NCBI GenBank assembly: GCA_009846685.1
Contig: VWVY01000003.1
Coordinates: 310,001-374,000, forward strand
Source: Rhizobiales bacterium SYSU XM002
GTDB lineage: Bacteria > Pseudomonadota > Alphaproteobacteria > Rhizobiales > Beijerinckiaceae
DNA: 64,000 nt
Reading direction: 5' to 3'
Below, piece after piece: positions 51,744-59,120 of the stretch (positions within the stretch are counted from its first letter, which is position 1; each line of letters starts with the position of its first letter). The notes beneath the pieces are model-generated. The model saw nothing but the letters and a program-made list of their open reading frames with translations, searched no databases and had not been told where the DNA came from. The position numbers and the translations under genes were made by a program.

Positions 51744-51819
51744 GCCGCAATAGCTCAGCTGGTAGAGCACGTCATTCGTAATGATGGGGTCGGGGGTTCG
51801 ATTCCCTCTTGCGGCACCA
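51744..51819 (+). tRNA. tRNA-Thr (anticodon CGT)
   Basis: A complete 76-nt cloverleaf with encoded CCA. The acceptor GCCGCAA pairs with TTGCGGC, the D arm is GCTC/GAGC, and the anticodon stem CGTCA/TGATG encloses loop TTCGTAA with CGT at 51777-51779 (reads ACG, Thr). The T arm is GGGGG-TTCGATT-CCCTC, then discriminator A and CCA at 51817-51819. Its 3' end from 51797 is repeated at 59098, showing that it is the integration target of the neighbouring element. A terminator follows. Confidence 0.97.
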
Positions 51820-51820
51820 C
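51797..51820 (+). repeat. attL: 3' end of tRNA-Thr
   Basis: TTCGATTCCCTCTTGCG (51797-51813), one G (51814), then CACCAC (51815-51820). The T loop to the CCA end of the intact tRNA forms the left attachment core. The same 17-mer and CACCAC recur at 59098. Confidence 0.88.
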
Positions 51821-51852
51821 CACCCCCTTCGCAAACAGCCATAGACGACCGC

Positions 51853-51878
51853 AAACCGGCCAAAAATGCCGGTTTTTT
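51853..51878 (+). terminator. Rho-independent terminator after tRNA-Thr
   Basis: AAACCGGC (51853-51860), loop CAAAAAT, GCCGGTTT (51868-51875) and TTT to 51878. It begins 33 nt after the tRNA CCA, inside the element's left end, so transcription of the tRNA is insulated from int. Confidence 0.85.
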
Positions 51879-51930
51879 GCTGTTTAGCGGCCATTTGTGA
51901 CCGCGAGCCTCCGTTGACAGCCGCGTGATT

Positions 51931-51952
51931 TGTGGGCCTTCTTGTGGGCCTT
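51931..51952 (+). repeat. Left tandem arm-type sites TGTGGGCCTT x2
   Basis: Two identical 10-mers TGTGGGCCTT (51931-51940 and 51943-51952) with a 2-nt spacer, about 110 nt inside attL. The same doublet occurs at the right end (59024-59045), also with a 2-nt spacer. The 12-bp period and terminal location fit integrase arm-type binding sites. An inverted TGTGGGCCT copy (51974-51982) abuts the int start codon. Confidence 0.7.
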
Positions 51953-51982
51953 GGCGCGGTGCCAGCGAACACGAGGCCCACA

Positions 51983-53200
51983 ATGCCGCTAACTGATGTT
52001 GCGATTCGGGCTTTCAAACCCGGTCCAAAGGTTGTGAAAAAGTCTGATGGCGGCGGATTGCAGCTATGGGTGATGCCTTCCGGCTCAAAACTTTGGTGCC
52101 TTGCCTATCGGAACAGCCAAGGAAAATTCAAAAAGCTGTCCATTGGCGCTTATCCTGAAGTTACCTTGGTGAAGGCACGTGCGGAACGAGATGCAGCCAA
52201 GGCGCTCTTGGCGTCTGGCCTTGATCCGGGCCAGCACAAGAAGACAGAAAAGGCCCACAAGGCGATTGCCGAGGCCCACACCTTCGCGCTCATAGCCGCC
52301 GAATTGATCGACAAGAAGCGGCGCGACGGGCGTGCGACGGCAACCCTCGAAAAGACCGAATGGATGCTGGATTTCGCGTTGCCCGTTATTGGCTCACGAC
52401 CGATCAAGGAAATCACCGCGCCGGAAATCTTGGGCGTGTTGCGTTCGGTTGAGGTGCGCGGACGTTATGAAACCGCCAAGCGCCTTCGCGCCGTCATCGG
52501 TGAAGTCTTTCGCTACGCGATTTCGACAACGCGAGCCGATGCCGATCCAACCTTTCACCTTCGGGGTGCGCTGACATCGCCAAAGGTCACGCATCGTGCG
52601 GCGATTACCGAGGCGAAGGCGCTTGGCGGGCTGATGCGCGCCATCGACGCCTTTCAAGGGCAGCCGACAACCATCGCCGCTTTGAAGCTGATGGCGCTTC
52701 TTTTTCCACGTCCGGGTGAATTGCGCCTTGCCGAATGGAAAGAGTTTGACGTTGAAAACGCGGTCTGGATCATCCCGGCGGCACGCATGAAGATGCGGCG
52801 CGAGCATCGGGTTCCCCTGCCGCCGCAAGCCTTGGCCGTGCTGGAAAGCCTTCGCCCGATAACCGGGCATGGCGATCTCGTGTTTCCCGGCATTGTCTCG
52901 GTAAAAAAGCCTATCTCCGAAAACACGATGAACGTCGCGTTGCGGCGCATGGGCTATGGACAGGATGAAATGACTGCGCACGGCTTTCGCGCTGCCGCGT
53001 CAACGCTGCTGAACGAATCGGGCAAGTTTTCTGCCGATGCCATCGAACGCGCGCTTGCCCATCAGGACAAGGACGCCATCCGCCGCACCTATGCGCGCGG
53101 GGAATATTGGCCGGAACGGGTGAAAATGGCGGTCTGGTGGGCTGACTACCTCGACGCCTTACGCGACGGCGCGAAGGTTGTTCCGTTCAAGAGGGCGTGA
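51983..53200 (+). CDS. int: P4-type tyrosine integrase of the element
   Basis: A 405-residue site-specific recombinase. The N-terminal DUF4102/arm-binding domain (LTDVAIRAFKPGPKVVKKSDGGGLQLWV) and a SAM-like core-binding domain precede the catalytic domain. That domain has Arg243 in FPRPGELRLAEW, His333-x-x-Arg336 (HGFRAAASTLLNE), then the LAHQDKDAIRRTYAR segment with H-x9-Tyr. The tail EYWPERVKMAVWWADYLD is typical of P4 integrases. All catalytic residues are intact. The ATG at 51983 gives the usual N-terminus (MPLTDVAIRA). It sits next to tRNA-Thr as expected for this family. Confidence 0.95.
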   Translation: MPLTDVAIRAFKPGPKVVKKSDGGGLQLWVMPSGSKLWCLAYRNSQGKFKKLSIGAYPEVTLVKARAERDAAKALLASGLDPGQHKKTEKAHKAIAEAHTFALIAAELIDKKRRDGRATATLEKTEWMLDFALPVIGSRPIKEITAPEILGVLRSVEVRGRYETAKRLRAVIGEVFRYAISTTRADADPTFHLRGALTSPKVTHRAAITEAKALGGLMRAIDAFQGQPTTIAALKLMALLFPRPGELRLAEWKEFDVENAVWIIPAARMKMRREHRVPLPPQALAVLESLRPITGHGDLVFPGIVSVKKPISENTMNVALRRMGYGQDEMTAHGFRAAASTLLNESGKFSADAIERALAHQDKDAIRRTYARGEYWPERVKMAVWWADYLDALRDGAKVVPFKRA

Positions 53201-53202
53201 CG

Positions 53203-54063
53203 ATGAATAATTCAAAAACGAACCGCTGGACAATCTCGGTTGAGCAGAATTTGCTAGCGACCAAAGAGACATGGGTTGGTCTTGTAGAAGAATTGCCGGA
53301 TTTTCGAGCGGAATGTGGCACACGTGATGACGCATTTTCTGCAATAGCCGATCATTTCAAAAATCTTATAAAAATTGGAGATGAAACAGATCCGATTATG
53401 ATCCAGTATATTTTAAATCCAACGCTTGAATTATATTTAGAATGCAGAAAAAATGGGCTTTATCCAGACTATCCGCATTTTGGTGGAAACGATTCTGTCG
53501 GAAATGTAGAGAATTATCTTTCAGAATATGGCATCGATCAATCTGTATTTTTGGGAGTGCTTGATGCTGATGAGGATATTATACAGAATTTATCTCTTAA
53601 ATTGATCGAAAACATATGCAAATCGAAGACTTTAAAGAAGTCTGGCGAAACTCACGTTATTGGTCGCGGACTTGTGTTGCCTGATGAACTGATGGACTGG
53701 CTGATCTGTTGCATGCTCGATGGGCTTCGATGGAATCGAATAGAGGAAATCCCGGTCGATCTAGTAGTCCTAATTCGAGCACGGCTTGTTCCCGGAGACT
53801 CGAAAATTGAGACCAAAATTCATGCCAAACGTATGAGGCAGCAAGCAGTTTGGATAGCTGCAAGCGCGATAGCCGCTGGGAATAACCCATCTTTTCGTTT
53901 CGTGGCCAAACACTTGAAGGTTGAGCCGAGCACCGTAAAGCGTTGGTTTTCTTCCGAAGACGAATTCAAACAGGAAGCCAAGCGCAGGTCCGCTGCATTT
54001 GATAAAACTGGCCTGCTAAAACCATTGTTCCCGAATGGGCGTCCAGTGTTGCATCCTAAATAG
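53203..54063 (+). CDS. Element-borne protein of unknown function (possible HicB-like N-terminus, HTH-like C-terminus)
   Basis: A 286-residue protein that I do not recognise as a known family. Residues about 10-50 (TWVGLVEELPDFRAECGTRDDAFSAIADHFKNLI) recall the HicB antitoxin fold, which has a W-x-A-x-(x)P-x-x-P-G-x type strand and helix. Near the C-terminus FRFVAKHLKVEPSTVKRWF reads as a helix-turn-helix. No signal or membrane segment. Its first half is clearly AT-richer than the neighbours (runs such as ATTTTAAAT), a sign of different origin. It follows int by 2 nt (ATG at 53203 after GAGGG), so probably co-transcribed. Functional suggestions are inference. Confidence 0.65.
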   Translation: MNNSKTNRWTISVEQNLLATKETWVGLVEELPDFRAECGTRDDAFSAIADHFKNLIKIGDETDPIMIQYILNPTLELYLECRKNGLYPDYPHFGGNDSVGNVENYLSEYGIDQSVFLGVLDADEDIIQNLSLKLIENICKSKTLKKSGETHVIGRGLVLPDELMDWLICCMLDGLRWNRIEEIPVDLVVLIRARLVPGDSKIETKIHAKRMRQQAVWIAASAIAAGNNPSFRFVAKHLKVEPSTVKRWFSSEDEFKQEAKRRSAAFDKTGLLKPLFPNGRPVLHPK

Positions 54064-54152
54064 CGTGCGCAACACATTCTGACTACGGCACCGTCCGCTC
54101 CAAGCCGCATGCGCTCTCACGAGTCCGCACGGCCTCATTGGAGCTGAACCAC

Positions 54153-54356
54153 ATGCACGCAATCGACCGCCTTATTCCCTTTGCAGAGGCCAGGAGCATG
54201 GCCGGGATGCGATCCACCAAAGCCTATCAAGAAGTCGCCGCTGGACGGCTTGCCGTTGTTCGCAACGGGCGGCGCACCTTCGTCCGGGCAAGCGAGTTGC
54301 AGCGCTACATCGACAGCCTGACTGAAACCAGCGCCAAGACATCCCGCAATGCCTAA
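54153..54356 (+). CDS. Small helix-turn-helix protein (excisionase/AlpA-like)
   Basis: A 67-residue protein with the winged-helix arrangement of excisionase-type DNA-binding proteins. IPFAEARSMAGMRSTKAYQEVAAGRLAVVRNGRRTFVRASELQRYIDSL is the MerR-like helix-turn-helix plus wing seen in AlpA and Xis. The ATG at 54153 lies about 9 nt after GGAGC. Its end overlaps the next gene by 8 nt. It probably acts as recombination directionality factor or regulator for one of the element's two recombinases; which one cannot be told. Confidence 0.75.
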   Translation: MHAIDRLIPFAEARSMAGMRSTKAYQEVAAGRLAVVRNGRRTFVRASELQRYIDSLTETSAKTSRNA

Positions 54357-54810
54357 GCGCCCGCATCGGCGCATGGTCAAGACGCATCGAAGTTACACGG
54401 TGGACGAGGCCGCGCGAGCGCTTGGCGTTGCCAAGGGCACGATCCGGCGATGGCTCAAGAGCGGCAAGCTTTCTGCTATCGAGGGGCTTCGTCCTGCCCT
54501 TATCCTTGGTCGCGAGCTTGCGGGCTTTCTCGACAAACGCCGGAAGCCCAAACAATCGTGCGCCCTTCAGGAGTGCTATTGCCTGACGTGCAGGGCACCG
54601 CGCGAAACGGCGGGCGGCATGGCCGATATCACCCTGCATGCCAACGGCGGCGGCAACCTTCGGGCGTTGTGCGCCGTCTGTAGCGGCATCATGCACAAGC
54701 GGGTTTCCAGCGCCACGATTCCGGCCCTTCAGACGATTCTAGACGTTGCAATCCAGCAGGCTTCCTCACGCATAGGGAAGCGGGCCTTCCCCTGTCCAAA
54801 TGATCACTAG
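54349..54810 (+). CDS. Helix-turn-helix plus zinc-ribbon DNA-binding protein
   Basis: A 153-residue protein combining an N-terminal excisionase-like HTH (SYTVDEAARALGVAKGTIRRWLKSGKL, residues 15-41) with a Cys-rich module. Cys71, Cys76 and Cys78-x2-Cys81 are followed after 26 residues by Cys108-x2-Cys111, the spacing of a zinc ribbon. The combination suggests sequence-specific DNA binding with a zinc-stabilised second domain. Overlap with the preceding gene (8 nt) and a 19-nt gap to the recombinase make a three-gene cassette. Alternative start ATG at 54373. Function is inferred. Confidence 0.7.
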   Translation: MPKRPHRRMVKTHRSYTVDEAARALGVAKGTIRRWLKSGKLSAIEGLRPALILGRELAGFLDKRRKPKQSCALQECYCLTCRAPRETAGGMADITLHANGGGNLRALCAVCSGIMHKRVSSATIPALQTILDVAIQQASSRIGKRAFPCPNDH

Positions 54811-54829
54811 AAGAAGGAGGGGCTACCCC

Positions 54830-55942
54830 ATGCGAAAGCACCATCCCGCGAATGAGCGGATAAAACACAAATACCTGGGCTATCTCGCCAATGCCCGACA
54901 GCTTTCCGAAGCCTCGATTGATCAGGCGACGGCAGCCATTGCGGCTTTTGAAGCTTCGACTGGATACCGTGATTTCAAGCTGTTCCGCATCGAGCAAGCG
55001 CATCAGTTCAAGCGGAAACTTGCCGCACAGGTCAACGTGGAAACTGGCAAGCCGCTCGCCAAGGCGACGATCCATTCCCGCCTGATGGCGTTGAAAGCTT
55101 TTGTGCAATGGCTCTCGCGCGAGCCGGGATATCGCAAGATCAACCACAACGATGCCGAGCATTTCAACCCGTCCGCCAATGATGGACGCATCGCGGCGGC
55201 AACGCGTGAGAAGCCCGCGCCAAGCATCGAGCAAATCCGGCATGTGTTGGCTTCGATGCCCGGTGACACCGATATTGAGAAGCGCAACCGTGCCTTGATC
55301 GCCTTCGCGCTTCTAAGTGGCGCGCGGGACAATGCCATCGCCTCGCTTTCCGTCCGGCATATCGACCTTGCCGCCCGAACCGTGTTTCAGGATGCACGCG
55401 ATGTGCGAACCAAGCGGCGGAAAACCTTCACCTCCTGCTTTTTCCCGGTAGGCGACGACATTGAAGCCATCGTTGCCGAATGGCTCGCGCATCTGGCAAC
55501 GGTGCTCCTGTTTGGGCCGGATGATCCGTTGTTTCCCAAAACGCGCATTGCCGTTGGTGACAGCGGCGGGTTTGAAGCGACAGGCCTTGAACGCCAGCAC
55601 TGGACGAATGCGCAGGCGATCCGGACCATCTTCCGCGATGCCTTTACAGCGGCGGGCTTGCCGTATTTCAACCCGCATTCGTTCCGGACAACACTTGTCC
55701 GGCTTGGGCAGAAGGTTTGCAATGGTCCGGAAGCCTTCAAGGCGTGGAGCCAGAACCTTGGCCACGAGAAGGTGGATACGACGTTCACCAGCTACGGCAA
55801 TGTGATCCACGACAGGCAGGCGGAAATCTTCGCACGATTGCGGGAGAGGGCTGGAACGCCGGAAGCGGAAGGCTTGCCGGATGCTGAAGCCGTGCGCAAC
55901 GCGTTTGCTGTGCTCCAGAAAGCCATGCCGGGCGTGCGCTAG
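54830..55942 (+). CDS. Second tyrosine recombinase of the element
   Basis: A 370-residue tyrosine recombinase, distinct from the P4-type integrase. A core-binding domain (YLGYLANARQLSEASIDQATAAIAAFEASTG, to about residue 115) precedes the catalytic domain. That domain has Arg166 (LLSGARDNAIASL), a Lys in the RTKRRKTFT hairpin, His283-x-x-Arg286 (NPHSFRTTLV), His312 and Tyr322 (LGHEKVDTTFTSYG). It appears complete. The ATG at 54830 follows AGGAGG. Its stop shares the palindrome CTAG (55939-55942) with the convergent restriction-modification gene. Target sites unknown. Confidence 0.88.
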   Translation: MRKHHPANERIKHKYLGYLANARQLSEASIDQATAAIAAFEASTGYRDFKLFRIEQAHQFKRKLAAQVNVETGKPLAKATIHSRLMALKAFVQWLSREPGYRKINHNDAEHFNPSANDGRIAAATREKPAPSIEQIRHVLASMPGDTDIEKRNRALIAFALLSGARDNAIASLSVRHIDLAARTVFQDARDVRTKRRKTFTSCFFPVGDDIEAIVAEWLAHLATVLLFGPDDPLFPKTRIAVGDSGGFEATGLERQHWTNAQAIRTIFRDAFTAAGLPYFNPHSFRTTLVRLGQKVCNGPEAFKAWSQNLGHEKVDTTFTSYGNVIHDRQAEIFARLRERAGTPEAEGLPDAEAVRNAFAVLQKAMPGVR

Positions 55943-58818
55943 GCAGGCGTGCCCTTGCGGCCTCGCTTACCTTTGGGGGCAGCAGCGGCGAGCACGGGCG
56001 CGGAAAGCTTCTCATAGAGGCCGAACAGGTGTTCAACGCGTTCGCGGTCCGATGTGAAGGGCGCGGTACGGTAAAGCCGGTCCACGGCGGCATCGAGCGC
56101 CTTGTGCGCCTTCCTGAGATCGGGCGGCATCACGTCGGGGTCATAGAGATCGGCAAGGGTGGAACCGGGATGCGCCAATCGCGCATCGAGCACGGCTTGT
56201 GCGAGAGCACGGATTTTTGCCTTGGCCTTTTCATCGGCCTCTGGCCACGGAAAGGTGTTGTAGACGATGCCGATGGAATATTGGTAGCGGCTTTCCAGCC
56301 GCCCTGTGACGGCACGCATCCAATCCATGTGCATCTTGGATGTTAGGACGCCGAATTCCCAAGTCGTTGCGTTGGGCATGATGCGCAGCTTGTTTGATGG
56401 AATAATCGGCGGTTCCAGCCAGCCAATCGGCACATACTCCCGGCGCTCTGAACTGACTTCCGGCACGCAAAGGAAGGGCGTTTCAGGGATTACCGTGACG
56501 TGAAACTGAGAGGGGGTTTCGGCTAAGGCACGCGAAGATATGCCCGGCGCTACCGGCGCGTGCCCTTCCTTGCGTTTGGCAGGGATTTTGCCGAGCCGGA
56601 ACTCTTTCACCTTTCGCAACGCCTCAACGGCGGCAGGAATCGCGCGGGCTTCTTCGGGCTTTGCATTCTGCAAGGTCAAAATCCATCGCATCCCGCCCTG
56701 AAGGTATTCCACGGCACCGATGAAAGGGCGTAAGAAGCCCTCTATCCTTGGATCAGCAGCAACCATTGCTGCACGCTCTTCATCCGAAAAAATCAGATAG
56801 CCGCCATCTATCGGCTTTGAACCGATTATGAGTTTGGGCGCTTCGTTGATGGCACGCGAGGTTTCCTCCACCACACAATGCCGATTCCCGAGCTTAGAGG
56901 CATCGAACAGATACGGTGATAGCGCCGCGTGCTGGCTTTCGACGGCTTCGCCATTCACATTGTCATAGCTGAAGAGGCGCTTGATTGCCGGTTCATCGGC
57001 GCGCTTAGCGAAGCCGATAATCACCACATGGACATGCGCCATGCCCCGTGCATCCGATCCCCATGCGAAGGTGCGATGGGCAAAGGCGATTTCCAGCCCA
57101 TACCGATCAAACAGCAAAGGCCAGAGTTGCGCGACCTGTTCGCCTTGCGTGATCGAATTGGTGGAAACGAAGCCGATGCGCGCATCCCCACCCCGCACAT
57201 AAGCCCCTGCCTTCAGGAACCAAGCGCACACATAATCGAGCGTGCCACCGGAGCCGCCAAGCCGGGCAATCTCCCGCACTTGCTGGCGCTGCTTTTCATC
57301 CTGAAACTTCGCCCCGATGAACGGCGGATTGCCGAGCACATAGGAGCACTTCTCCGGCGCGAGCACGCCAGCCCAATCAGCTTCCAAAGCATCGTCAAAG
57401 TGAATATGCGGAGAAGCCTTGATCGGGATGCGCGCATAGGCCTCGCCAAATTCAAGGCTGAGCCGGTTGTTCATGATGTGATCCATCATCCACAACGCAA
57501 CCTCCGCAATGCGTGCGGGAAATTCGCCGATCTCGATGCCGTAGAACTGGCTGACATCGATTTTCGAGAGCGAGCCAACATTGAAACGGTATTCTCCGGG
57601 CGTATTTGTGAAACCCGGACGGGCAAAACCTGCTCCGTGAATTTCCTTCAGCACCTCAATTTCCAGCGAGCGCAATTCCCGATAGGCAATAATCAGGAAG
57701 TTGCCGCACCCGCATGCCGGATCGAAAAACGTCAACCCGGCGAGCTTGGCCTGAAATGCCTGAAGTGCCTGCACCCGTCCGGCACCACGCCGCGCTTTGG
57801 CCTTCTCCAGTTCGGCTTTTAGATCATCGAGGAACAATGGCCCGATGACCTTCAGGATATTCTTTTCCGTGGTGTAATGCGCGCCCGATGCGCGGCGTTC
57901 CTTCGCGTTCATGACGGATTGAAACAGCGAACCGAAAATCGCGGGCGAAATCGCATCCCAATTGAATTCGCAGGCTTCTATGAGAAGCGACCGCATCGCC
58001 TTGTCAAAGGATGGCGTCGGCAGGCGTTCGCGGAAGAGATCGCCGTTGACATAGGGGAAGGCGGCAAGGTCTTCGTCCAGTGCCTTCTGGCGCTTGTTCA
58101 CAGGCTTGTCCGGCGTGTTGAGCACGTCGAACAGATTGTGCAGCCATTGCCCGGTGTCGCTGCCATCCTCGCTTGTGCGGGAGGTGATCAGGTCCAGAAA
58201 CATGCCGCGTTGATCAAAGATGCCGGTATCATCCGCGAACAGGCAGAAGACCAAGCGCACAAGGAAGCGCTCCAGATCGTGCCCGTCATAGCCTGAAGCC
58301 TTGAGCGCATCGTGCAGCTTGCCCATGAGGGCGGCAGCTTCCACGTTGACCGGGTCTTGGTCCTTGAATTCCCGCTTCTGCACGCCAAGAATGAACGTGA
58401 ACCGCTCGATGTGCTTGTGCAGATCGGGAAGAGCAAAGGTGACAGGCTCCCCGCCTTCCTCCAGATCGTGCAGTTCAAACGTCTGGAAATCGGAGAGAAG
58501 GATATAGCGCGGTAATTCCGCATCCTTCAGGCCGGGGAAATAATCGAGCGCTTGCGTCTTGGCTTTCTTCAGATCACGCCCGGCGCTCTTCTGCTCGACA
58601 AGCAGGACGCCTTTCCAGAACAGATCAATGAAACCGCGCTTCTCGCCTAACAGCCTGACCGGCGCTTCAAAGCTCGCAACTTTCCGGCGCTGCACGCCGA
58701 ACACTTCGAAAAACGCGTTGTAGAAGCTTTGGGTTTCGCCGCGCTCATAGACGGCTTCATTCCAGTCATCCGAAAACTTGGCCGCACGCGCCCGAATTTC
58801 GTTCCAGCTTAACCGCAT
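55939..58818 (-). CDS. MmeI-like (type IIL) single-chain restriction-modification enzyme
   Basis: A 959-residue fused nuclease-methyltransferase-specificity protein. N-terminal nuclease: Asp65-X9-Glu75-X-Lys77 (RGFIDLFWKGVLLVEQKSAG), the same D-X9-E-X-K pattern as in MmeI. A helical connector contains GAHYT (311-316). Gamma-class N6-adenine methylase motifs follow: I FDPACGCGNFL (366-375) and IV GNPPF (496-500). A long target-recognition region runs from about 600 to 860, including LESRYQYSIGIVYNTFPWPE, conserved in the family. Such enzymes methylate one strand of an asymmetric site and cut about 20 nt away. The ATG at 58818 (MRLSWNEIRARAAKFSDDW) is favoured over an upstream TTG. The recognition sequence cannot be predicted by eye. 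Confidence 0.9.
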   Translation of the reverse strand: MRLSWNEIRARAAKFSDDWNEAVYERGETQSFYNAFFEVFGVQRRKVASFEAPVRLLGEKRGFIDLFWKGVLLVEQKSAGRDLKKAKTQALDYFPGLKDAELPRYILLSDFQTFELHDLEEGGEPVTFALPDLHKHIERFTFILGVQKREFKDQDPVNVEAAALMGKLHDALKASGYDGHDLERFLVRLVFCLFADDTGIFDQRGMFLDLITSRTSEDGSDTGQWLHNLFDVLNTPDKPVNKRQKALDEDLAAFPYVNGDLFRERLPTPSFDKAMRSLLIEACEFNWDAISPAIFGSLFQSVMNAKERRASGAHYTTEKNILKVIGPLFLDDLKAELEKAKARRGAGRVQALQAFQAKLAGLTFFDPACGCGNFLIIAYRELRSLEIEVLKEIHGAGFARPGFTNTPGEYRFNVGSLSKIDVSQFYGIEIGEFPARIAEVALWMMDHIMNNRLSLEFGEAYARIPIKASPHIHFDDALEADWAGVLAPEKCSYVLGNPPFIGAKFQDEKQRQQVREIARLGGSGGTLDYVCAWFLKAGAYVRGGDARIGFVSTNSITQGEQVAQLWPLLFDRYGLEIAFAHRTFAWGSDARGMAHVHVVIIGFAKRADEPAIKRLFSYDNVNGEAVESQHAALSPYLFDASKLGNRHCVVEETSRAINEAPKLIIGSKPIDGGYLIFSDEERAAMVAADPRIEGFLRPFIGAVEYLQGGMRWILTLQNAKPEEARAIPAAVEALRKVKEFRLGKIPAKRKEGHAPVAPGISSRALAETPSQFHVTVIPETPFLCVPEVSSERREYVPIGWLEPPIIPSNKLRIMPNATTWEFGVLTSKMHMDWMRAVTGRLESRYQYSIGIVYNTFPWPEADEKAKAKIRALAQAVLDARLAHPGSTLADLYDPDVMPPDLRKAHKALDAAVDRLYRTAPFTSDRERVEHLFGLYEKLSAPVLAAAAPKGKRGRKGTPA

Positions 58819-58974
58819 GAATGCCCCGCCCGGATCGCCGCACTTGCTCGATGGCAATATGCTCGCAACGCCATGGTTACGGGCAGGGATGATTCACGGC
58901 AAGCGTGAGGTTTTGGCGATGGCTAGCGAAACTGTTTCGTTGGCGGGCCGTAGCATCGGGAATATCTGACATTG

Positions 58975-59060
58975 CCAAAAATATTTCTGATGACCGCCGA
59001 AATCCGCCCATAGCCGCGAAATATGTGGGCCTTACTGTGGGCCTTTTTCAGAAATATTGG
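58975..59060. repeat. Inverted repeat flanking the right arm-type sites
   Basis: CCAAAAATATTTCTGA (58975-58990) and TCAGAAATATTGG (59048-59060) are inverted copies differing by three extra A residues in the left arm, separated by 57 nt that include both TGTGGGCCTT motifs. It may bind excisionase or IHF-like proteins; role inferred. Confidence 0.55.
59024..59045 (+). repeat. Right tandem arm-type sites TGTGGGCCTT x2
   Basis: TGTGGGCCTT at 59024-59033 and 59036-59045 with a 2-nt spacer, an exact copy of the left-end arrangement in the same orientation, 52 nt from attR. Confidence 0.7.
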
Positions 59061-59097
59061 AATTAATTCATTGTATTACAGATAGATAACTCGAATC

Positions 59098-59120
59098 TTC
59101 GATTCCCTCTTGCGCACCAC
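59098..59120 (+). repeat. attR: repeat of the tRNA-Thr 3' end with a one-base deletion
   Basis: TTCGATTCCCTCTTGCG (59098-59114) directly followed by CACCAC (59115-59120). It equals the tRNA 3' end except that one G of the acceptor-stem GCGGC is missing. No other tRNA part lies upstream, so it is a remnant, not a gene. Confidence 0.85.

Follow-up and report, generated by a model that had tools for sequence, protein, structure and literature searches.

We analysed a 64,000-nt stretch of the genome of Rhizobiales bacterium SYSU XM002 (contig VWVY01000003.1, positions 310,001 to 374,000), here called the window, to which all coordinates refer. Directly behind a tRNA-Thr(CGT) gene, the sole tRNA gene that ARAGORN identifies in the window (51744-51819), lies a putative integrative element of about 7.3 kb with six open reading frames (ORFs). 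The gene order is tRNA-Thr, int1, orf286, hth72, hth153 and TR2 on the plus strand, followed on the minus strand by a gene for an MmeI-type restriction-modification (RM) enzyme. The element and its ends comprise the following features:

51744-51819, plus strand: tRNA-Thr(CGT), the predicted integration target, with the core of the left attachment site (attL, 51797-51819) at its 3' end; based on ARAGORN, an exact 17-nt repeat and the order hemY-tRNA-Thr in 14 same-genus loci.
51931-51952, plus strand: left twin repeat TGTGGGCCTTnnTGTGGGCCTT, a predicted arm-type site; the letters are identical in the same-genus genomes G005 and G008 and differ in other elements.
51975-51982, minus strand: inverted TGTGGGCC half-site directly before the int1 start; more copies at 52252 and 52273 (minus strand).
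51983-53200, plus strand: int1, arm-binding tyrosine integrase of 405 amino acids (aa); Pfam Arm-DNA-bind_3 (3.5e-24), Phage_int_M (1.1e-27) and Phage_integrase (2.7e-17).
53203-54063, plus strand: orf286, cargo of slot 1 without an assigned family, 45-48% GC; in G005 this place is taken by an unrelated ORF (homology gap).
54138-54356, plus strand: hth72, small excisionase-type helix-turn-helix (HTH) protein; Pfam HTH_17 (1.4e-4, below the curated cut-off), PHROG excisionase (3.8e-4).
54349-54810, plus strand: hth153, 153 aa, Xis/MerR-type winged HTH and a four-cysteine zinc-ribbon-like domain (presumed to bind zinc).
54830-55942, plus strand: TR2, core-only tyrosine recombinase, 370 aa.
55939-58818, minus strand: MmeI-type IIG restriction enzyme-methyltransferase, 959 aa, five MmeI Pfam domains; PADLOC IIG, 1153.8 bits.
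56334-56902, minus strand: target-recognition region of the MmeI-type enzyme, diverged from G005 within an otherwise 84-97% identical enzyme.
59024-59045, plus strand: right twin repeat TGTGGGCCTTnnTGTGGGCCTT, an exact match to the left copy.
59098-59119, plus strand: core of the right attachment site (attR), TTCGATTCCCTCTTGCG-CACCA, which lacks one G of the tRNA sequence.

As in tRNA-associated islands, the integrase gene adjoins the 3' end of the tRNA gene, and a direct repeat of that end lies at the far end of the element. The repeat, TTCGATTCCCTCTTGCG, is exact over 17 nt (51797-51813 and 59098-59114). With up to three mismatches allowed, it matched only these two sites of the window; since the chance mean is 0.33 and two sites were reached in 5 of 100 shuffled sequences, the 17-nt repeat alone is modest evidence. 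A much stronger end signature, overlooked in the first-pass annotation, is the TGTGGGCCTTnnTGTGGGCCTT pair inside both ends. Even with three mismatches allowed, the window contains no other match (chance mean 0.00), and genome-wide only one extra match at up to two mismatches was obtained, at a sister island on contig C13. In the islands of relatives the twin arrangement is kept and the letters are changed. The N-terminus of int1 is an Arm-DNA-bind_3 domain, and the repeats look like arm-type sites for this integrase. An element inserted in tRNA-Thr and bounded by direct repeats of the tRNA 3' end, as the first-pass annotation had proposed, was thus confirmed by the exact 17-mer and the twin repeats. 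The extent it had given to the direct repeats (51797-51820 and 59098-59120) held for the 17 nt only, as the two copies are not colinear up to 51820 and 59120: attR reads TTGCG-CACCAC, one G short of TTGCGGCACCAC in the tRNA.

The same pattern, TCCCTCTTGCGCACCA, with an attR one G short (TTGCG-CACCA), occurs in 5 of 17 genomes of the genus (G000, G001, G012, G013 and G015), with twin arm-like repeats before each copy. After CACCA, a TTTCCCC-type host tail follows in G000, G001 and G015, and other sequence in G012 and G013; G004 and G005 break after TTGC instead. Because attR lacks the same G in five elements of the genus, exchange probably occurs at CACCA; most simply, the core carried by the element would itself lack one base. 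The exact 17-mer had been considered as a conservative core of attB and attP, and was dropped for the same reason. Strand exchange at the CACCA terminus would leave the host tRNA whole. The empty site would then read ...TTGCGGCACCA-CTTTCCCC, the circular form (attP) ...TTCCCTCTTGCGCACCA-CCACCCCC, and attB would be the intact GGCACCA-CTTTCCCC. A single ancestral integration followed by later exchange of content is also conceivable.

The two tyrosine recombinases, DNA-binding proteins and MmeI-like enzyme listed in the first-pass annotation are all present, with two HTH proteins and a five-domain MmeI. Searches of the six ORFs against Pfam, NCBIfam, PADLOC and PHROGs recognised no gene for a capsid, a relaxase or conjugation, though one of the ORFs, orf286, is without family; the earlier statement that conjugation and capsid genes are lacking therefore stands at this level. 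By its recognised genes, the element classes neither as an integrative and conjugative or mobilizable element (ICE, IME), no relaxase or type IV secretion gene being found among the six ORFs, nor as a prophage or classical phage-inducible chromosomal island, for which no capsid, packaging or replication gene was recognised. Named PHROGs matches comprise integrase, excisionase, regulators or DNA-binding proteins and methyltransferase, plus one weak match of an HTH to a terminase small subunit (0.0071).

int1 and TR2 differ in kind. The former is an arm-binding integrase next to the tRNA, the latter a core-only enzyme in a separate, recurrent pair with hth153. Residues R166, K195, H283, R286, H312 and Y322 of TR2, whose catalytic roles we assume from the enzyme class, are invariant in nine aligned sequences, down to 39% identity. 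The predicted TR2 model had a mean predicted local distance difference test (pLDDT) score of 77.5, with poor C-terminal stretches. Foldseek matched it to Cre, XerA and Brujita Int (E 2e-7 to 9e-7, TM-scores 0.3-0.6), and no PDB sequence matched TR2 at E 0.001. In hth153, cysteines C78, C108 and C111 are invariant in 40 aligned rows, and C81 is conserved in at least 90%. With its model (pLDDT 85.9), no PDB fold matched over the whole chain at E 0.001; the HTH part alone was matched by Foldseek to BldC and Pukovnik Xis with probabilities of 0.93-0.99 but E values of only 0.1-0.3. The best PDB sequence match of this HTH was RppC (E 1.4e-4 over 30 residues), which we take to be a phage-satellite protein.

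The MmeI-type enzyme aligns over nearly its full length to MmeI (PDB 5HR4, E 7e-271). Nuclease, methylase, spacer, target-recognition and C-terminal domains occur in one chain with intact motifs (D65-x9-E-x-K, DPACGCG at 366 and NPPF at 497). It thus has in common with MmeI the full-length homology, all domains, the D-x9-ExK nuclease and the N6-methylase motifs. The gene is apparently intact, and homology and motifs indicate that its product should restrict and methylate as a single-chain protein. Between the window and G005, the target-recognition domain (TRD, residues 641-830) is only 40% identical, compared to 97%, 84% and 91.5% in the other parts. Such a close pair of elements, with matching MmeI bodies and unlike recognition domains, points to a change of specificity on a mobile chassis.

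A full-length match to tRNA-Thr(CGT) at 96% identity or more was found in 14 of 17 same-genus genomes, and hemY precedes the tRNA in all 14 loci, our own included. An int1-like sequence follows directly in eight of these loci (own included), near full length in six. The remaining six show no int1 within the available 1.5 kb or so; one of them, G001, is cut by a contig end and shows an attR elsewhere, and the other five (G002, G007, G009, G011 and G014) present hemY-tRNA as an unoccupied site over this distance. In G011, arm-like repeats persist behind the tRNA, possibly as part of a remnant. The hemY/tRNA-Thr site is therefore an integration hotspot. In G002 and G014, the tail after the tRNA matches the tail behind attR in the window. 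Gene order had been expected to resume on both sides of the element; this holds on the left (hemY), and on the right just the short tail is conserved in the genomes inspected (in G002 91% over 42 nt, about 15 nt of which are att core). In G014 (L164), genes matching the window at about 0.4-16 kb stand after tRNA-Thr, indicating a chromosomal rearrangement at the site.

The element is also present at this tRNA in G005 (int1 96%, TR2 85%, MmeI 81-82% identity), there with the slot behind int1 replaced. A second left end starts after the attR of G005, indicating that islands accrete at this tRNA. In G008 (L066), a match to int1 with 95% identity ends at residue 281, and an hth72 homologue follows about 270 bp further on, near the contig end; this is possibly a deleted island at the same tRNA. 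The genome of the window itself holds two more islands. One, on contig C2 (L058), is a second family island at tRNA-Leu(CAA) with int1, a member of the slot-1 family, an AlpA-like ORF, hth153 and TR2; two of the most frequent cargo clusters are represented by its first two right-hand ORFs. The other, on contig C13 (L072, L220), lies at tRNA-Leu(CAG) and encodes homologues of int1 (64%) and hth72 (75%); hth153 and TR2 were not found there.

A profile search with TR2 in GTDB genomes yielded 382 related loci via two peptide patterns, the best 80 of which were kept and combined with seven viral loci, the window and the C2 island to give a set of 89. hth153 belongs to one cluster in 76 of the 89, directly upstream of TR2 in most loci, and a member of the int1 family is present in 65. 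By tblastn, int1 lies upstream in 40 of 87 loci and converges from downstream in 14; among the remaining 33, a profile search picked up int1-like ORFs in 13, some of these being short or weak. A tRNA gene is located less than 500 bp before int1 in 33 of the 87 loci; the tRNAs next to int1 include Thr, Leu and Phe. According to record titles, the loci derive from Alpha- and Gammaproteobacteria, Desulfobulbaceae/Desulfuromonas, Acidobacteria and Nitrospirota, with many metagenome bins among them. TR2 relatives also occur in four plasmids and in eight viral contigs of IMG/VR (L153-L160, up to 91 kb); phage records gave no match.

When 385 genomes were drawn evenly from the class of the window, TR2 was detected at E 1e-30 in 22 genomes (own included) at 25 places; one of the drawn loci, L200, is the same locus as L079. 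Among 20 loci of this draw, 17 have hth153 and 16 an ORF matching the int1 profile; in 15, the 8 kb after TR2 include a methyltransferase-motif ORF. The tRNAs next to int1 included Glu, Ser, Asn, Gly, Gln and selenocysteine, the last adjoining two family islands (L202 and L203). The element thus belongs to a widespread family in which hth153-TR2 is a recurrent pair, mostly found close to an integrase and in many cases next to a tRNA, and the commonest form of which is tRNA, int1, exchangeable slot, small AlpA/Xis-like HTH, hth153, TR2 and RM cargo.

As a proxy for RM genes, we used the methyltransferase motif [NDS]PP[YFW]. In tRNA-adjacent islands with ORFs of at least 200 aa within 5.5 kb after TR2, it was present in 24 of 31, compared to 1 of 32 loci with upstream chromosomal ORFs (24/84 and 1/139 by ORF). 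The first right-hand ORF of at least 200 aa runs in the direction of TR2 in 23 of the 31. At 1e-15, 82 right-hand ORFs matched 253 PADLOC families, compared to three families for 82 upstream ORFs. Type III methyltransferase (13 ORFs), type III endonuclease (7) and IIG (6) led the former, and Pfam domains of the cargo were headed by ResIII (13), N6_N4_Mtase (12) and MmeI_Mtase (6). Further cargo included a type ISP enzyme (L084), a type I endonuclease with specificity proteins (L074) and the candidate defence genes PDC-M65 and HEC-05 (L080, L131). The proteins tried from L076, L095 and L120 had no PADLOC match at 1e-8, and L116 just TPR-type and oxidoreductase matches. Across all 87 loci, with any flanks, 46 have an ORF with a methyltransferase motif no further than 8 kb away on one side or the other.

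Control islands were 20 places of the int1 family in the same class without TR2, all with a tRNA within 600 bp; 19 were eligible. A methyltransferase-motif ORF occurred within 9 kb after int1 in 27 of 32 islands of set 1, in 7 of 9 of the even draw and in 3 of 19 controls. Set 1 is biased because it was chosen by similarity to TR2s like that of the window; the even draw is not biased in that way, but is small. PADLOC points the same way: in the even draw, 53 ORFs within 4.5 kb after TR2 matched 211 PADLOC families, with type III leading (six ORFs) and type I at three. In the controls, 89 ORFs lie within 9 kb after int1; among the 25 families shown, none was matched by more than two ORFs, and single ORFs represented HamB, ZorD, Dsr2 and others. 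Thus, sister islands carry varied defences, and islands with hth153-TR2 in most cases carry RM.

The RM cargo itself turns over. Among locus pairs with TR2s at least 78% identical, the pair of the window set aside, no right-hand ORF was shared in 14 of 17, although some flanks were short; what one of the remaining three shares is only an ORF of integrase size, located where its converging int1 lies. The window and L073 share MmeI. In DNA comparisons of pairs with unlike cargo, homology ends near the end of TR2. That RM is kept through this turnover suggests a functional coupling of hth153-TR2 to RM.

Taking together the anatomy of the element, the recurrence of hth153-TR2 and its association with RM relative to the controls, we conclude that the window most probably (probability about 0.82) holds a non-conjugative integrative element of about 7.3 kb, inserted by int1 at the 3' end of tRNA-Thr(CGT) and belonging to the widespread hth153-TR2/RM family. 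The earlier description as a compact mobile defence element rather than a prophage or ICE is supported by the RM payload, by the lack of a recognised conjugation or capsid gene, by the same element in G005 and by a site that is filled with int1-like DNA in some relatives but not in others. The anatomy strongly argues that int1 would drive integration into the tRNA 3' end, bridging from the core sites to the twin arm repeats of the two ends, and hth72 would probably act as its directionality factor. The hth153-TR2 pair may form a second recombination module coupled to the RM cargo through exchange, control or retention, and the MmeI enzyme is expected to protect host and element from foreign DNA. 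More specifically, and only tentatively, the pair could be a dedicated RM module: hth153, as a zinc-ribbon Xis-like protein, and TR2, as a core-only recombinase, would either act on the RM genes behind them or control how these become established. If so, one integrative chassis found in several phyla could keep swapping restriction systems or their specificities, nearly always carrying one. Defence genes on islands are already known; a two-gene recombinase module that separates RM islands from sisters with the same integrase and other cargo offers a testable handle on what makes an island carry RM and not something else, and a simple marker for such islands.

Several observations weigh against this interpretation. 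The DUF1330 and enoyl-CoA hydratase genes that the first-pass annotation predicted as neighbours of the empty site were not found after tRNA-Thr in G002, G011 and G014 (about 1.5 kb was seen in G007 and G009). No methyltransferase motif occurs within 8 kb in 41 of 87 TR2 loci, some of them with contigs that end early and some carrying other or unassigned genes. The difference to the controls (Fisher 2.9e-6 for set 1, 2.8e-3 for the even draw) ignores kinship among genomes, and the controls are not RM-poor in absolute terms, with 167 PADLOC families matched by their 89 ORFs. No conserved attachment-like motif was found among 9-mers shared in the 250 bp after TR2 of the 89 loci; the commonest occur in 4-6 loci (a single shuffled set gave 4), and the most frequent seemingly come from methyltransferase coding sequence. 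L072, a related island of this genome, has int1 and hth72 but no TR2, indicating that TR2 is dispensable for tRNA targeting. An internal stop codon lies inside TR2 at 4 of the 25 places of the class draw (L208, L212, L214 and L216, one each), so some islands have either lost the recombinase or read through the stop.

The last two points, together with the accretion of islands seen in G005, would suit hth153 and TR2 being a decayed or passenger second integrase, nested or accreted and without function, with the RM link inherited from one ancestral island. This is quite unlikely, as all six presumed catalytic positions are invariant in the nine TR2 relatives and hth153 is kept just upstream of TR2 in most loci. 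Moreover, the turnover in 14 of 17 pairs and the range of cargo (types I, IIG, III and ISP) indicate that one frozen ancestral cargo is no explanation. Turnover itself might be the task of the pair: an integron- or shufflon-like system that inserts or exchanges RM genes or target-recognition domains beside itself would account for the break of homology near the 3' end of TR2, for cargo lying directly behind TR2 in most tRNA-adjacent islands and for the diverged TRD. We consider such cargo loading rather unlikely. It is difficult to reconcile with the lack of a common site after TR2 in the 89 loci and with the methyltransferase standing before TR2 in L096 and L131 (2 of 27 positive set-1 islands); the window has a single MmeI gene with no silent TRD copy seen, and ordinary recombination also yields TRD swaps. 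A shufflon-type switch was rejected, since no long inverted repeat was found inside the element, only imperfect ones of 17 and 13 nt, both in slot 1.

Two further alternatives concern the transfer of the element. Packaging by a helper phage, as a phage-inducible satellite, is unlikely but is the strongest of these rivals: similar elements with integrase, alpA and defence genes and no transfer genes are described as transduced by a jumbo phage (PMC12595487), the HTH of hth153 is closest in PDB sequence to RppC, and TR2 relatives occur in the eight IMG/VR contigs. However, no packaging, capsid-remodelling or replication gene was recognised in the six ORFs, TR2 is unmatched in phage records, and RppC and terminase small subunits resemble many MerR-type HTHs. 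An IME mobilised by conjugation in trans, a frequent route for compact integrase-bearing islands according to PMC5704250, is improbable and the least favoured; no relaxase was recognised in the six ORFs, oriT not having been sought.

RM systems are described as riding on mobile elements, with type IIC over-represented (PMC4176335). Closest in function to the non-conjugative element of the window are the I23/I44/I55 islands of Pseudomonas, in particular the I55 type, for which PMC12595487 describes a tyrosine integrase by an RNA gene, a 14-bp direct repeat, AlpA, defence cargo including type II RM, and no transfer genes. They differ in their tmRNA site, a common 18-kb region with YqaJ and Gp2-like proteins and alpA at the far end, and the parts of that paper considered here mention no second recombinase pair. 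Strand-biased circularizing integrative elements (PMC10214605) likewise have two catalytic tyrosine recombinases as element genes. They are set apart by description: their core is intA-tfp-intB-srap, they have no empty site, and they are reported from Gammaproteobacteria, with tfp and srap not found in Alphaproteobacteria. The window element instead has an arm-binding integrase at a tRNA and an HTH/zinc-ribbon-like protein, and its gene content does not match that core. GInt (PMC5385486), RIT and BIM (both PMC3414803) resemble it as tyrosine recombinase gene sets with a conserved partner. GInt is described with four genes. RIT is a trio of tandem recombinases, unlike the two of the window, which are separated by three ORFs. 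BIM, also considered and set aside, comprises one recombinase and a protein of unknown function (with an SMC domain in a table) in beta-proteobacteria. TR2 shares with the simple tyrosine recombinases of PMC8138268 a core-binding and a catalytic domain without an arm-binding domain, some of these also being on mobile elements. The dusA-targeted islands (PMC4482086) are integrase islands that sometimes carry type I RM, but their target lies inside the dusA gene, about half are prophages and one integrase family is involved. No description of the hth153-TR2 pair or of an RM-specific tRNA island family was found in the literature searched, where most subscription journals fell outside coverage.

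The two genes between int1 and hth153 differ from the forms common in the family. A 73-aa AlpA-like ORF, one member of which matches Pfam Phage_AlpA, occupies the place of hth72 (about -710) in 55 of the 89 TR2 loci; hth72 is not a member of this cluster, whose hidden Markov model (HMM) gave no match to it. Membership of orf286 in the common slot-1 family was rejected on the same grounds, the family HMM being without a match, and Pfam, NCBIfam, PADLOC and PHROGs returned nothing for this ORF beyond a sub-threshold HTH. Its GC content is 45-48%, compared to 55-62% in most of the element and 67-70% in the left flank.

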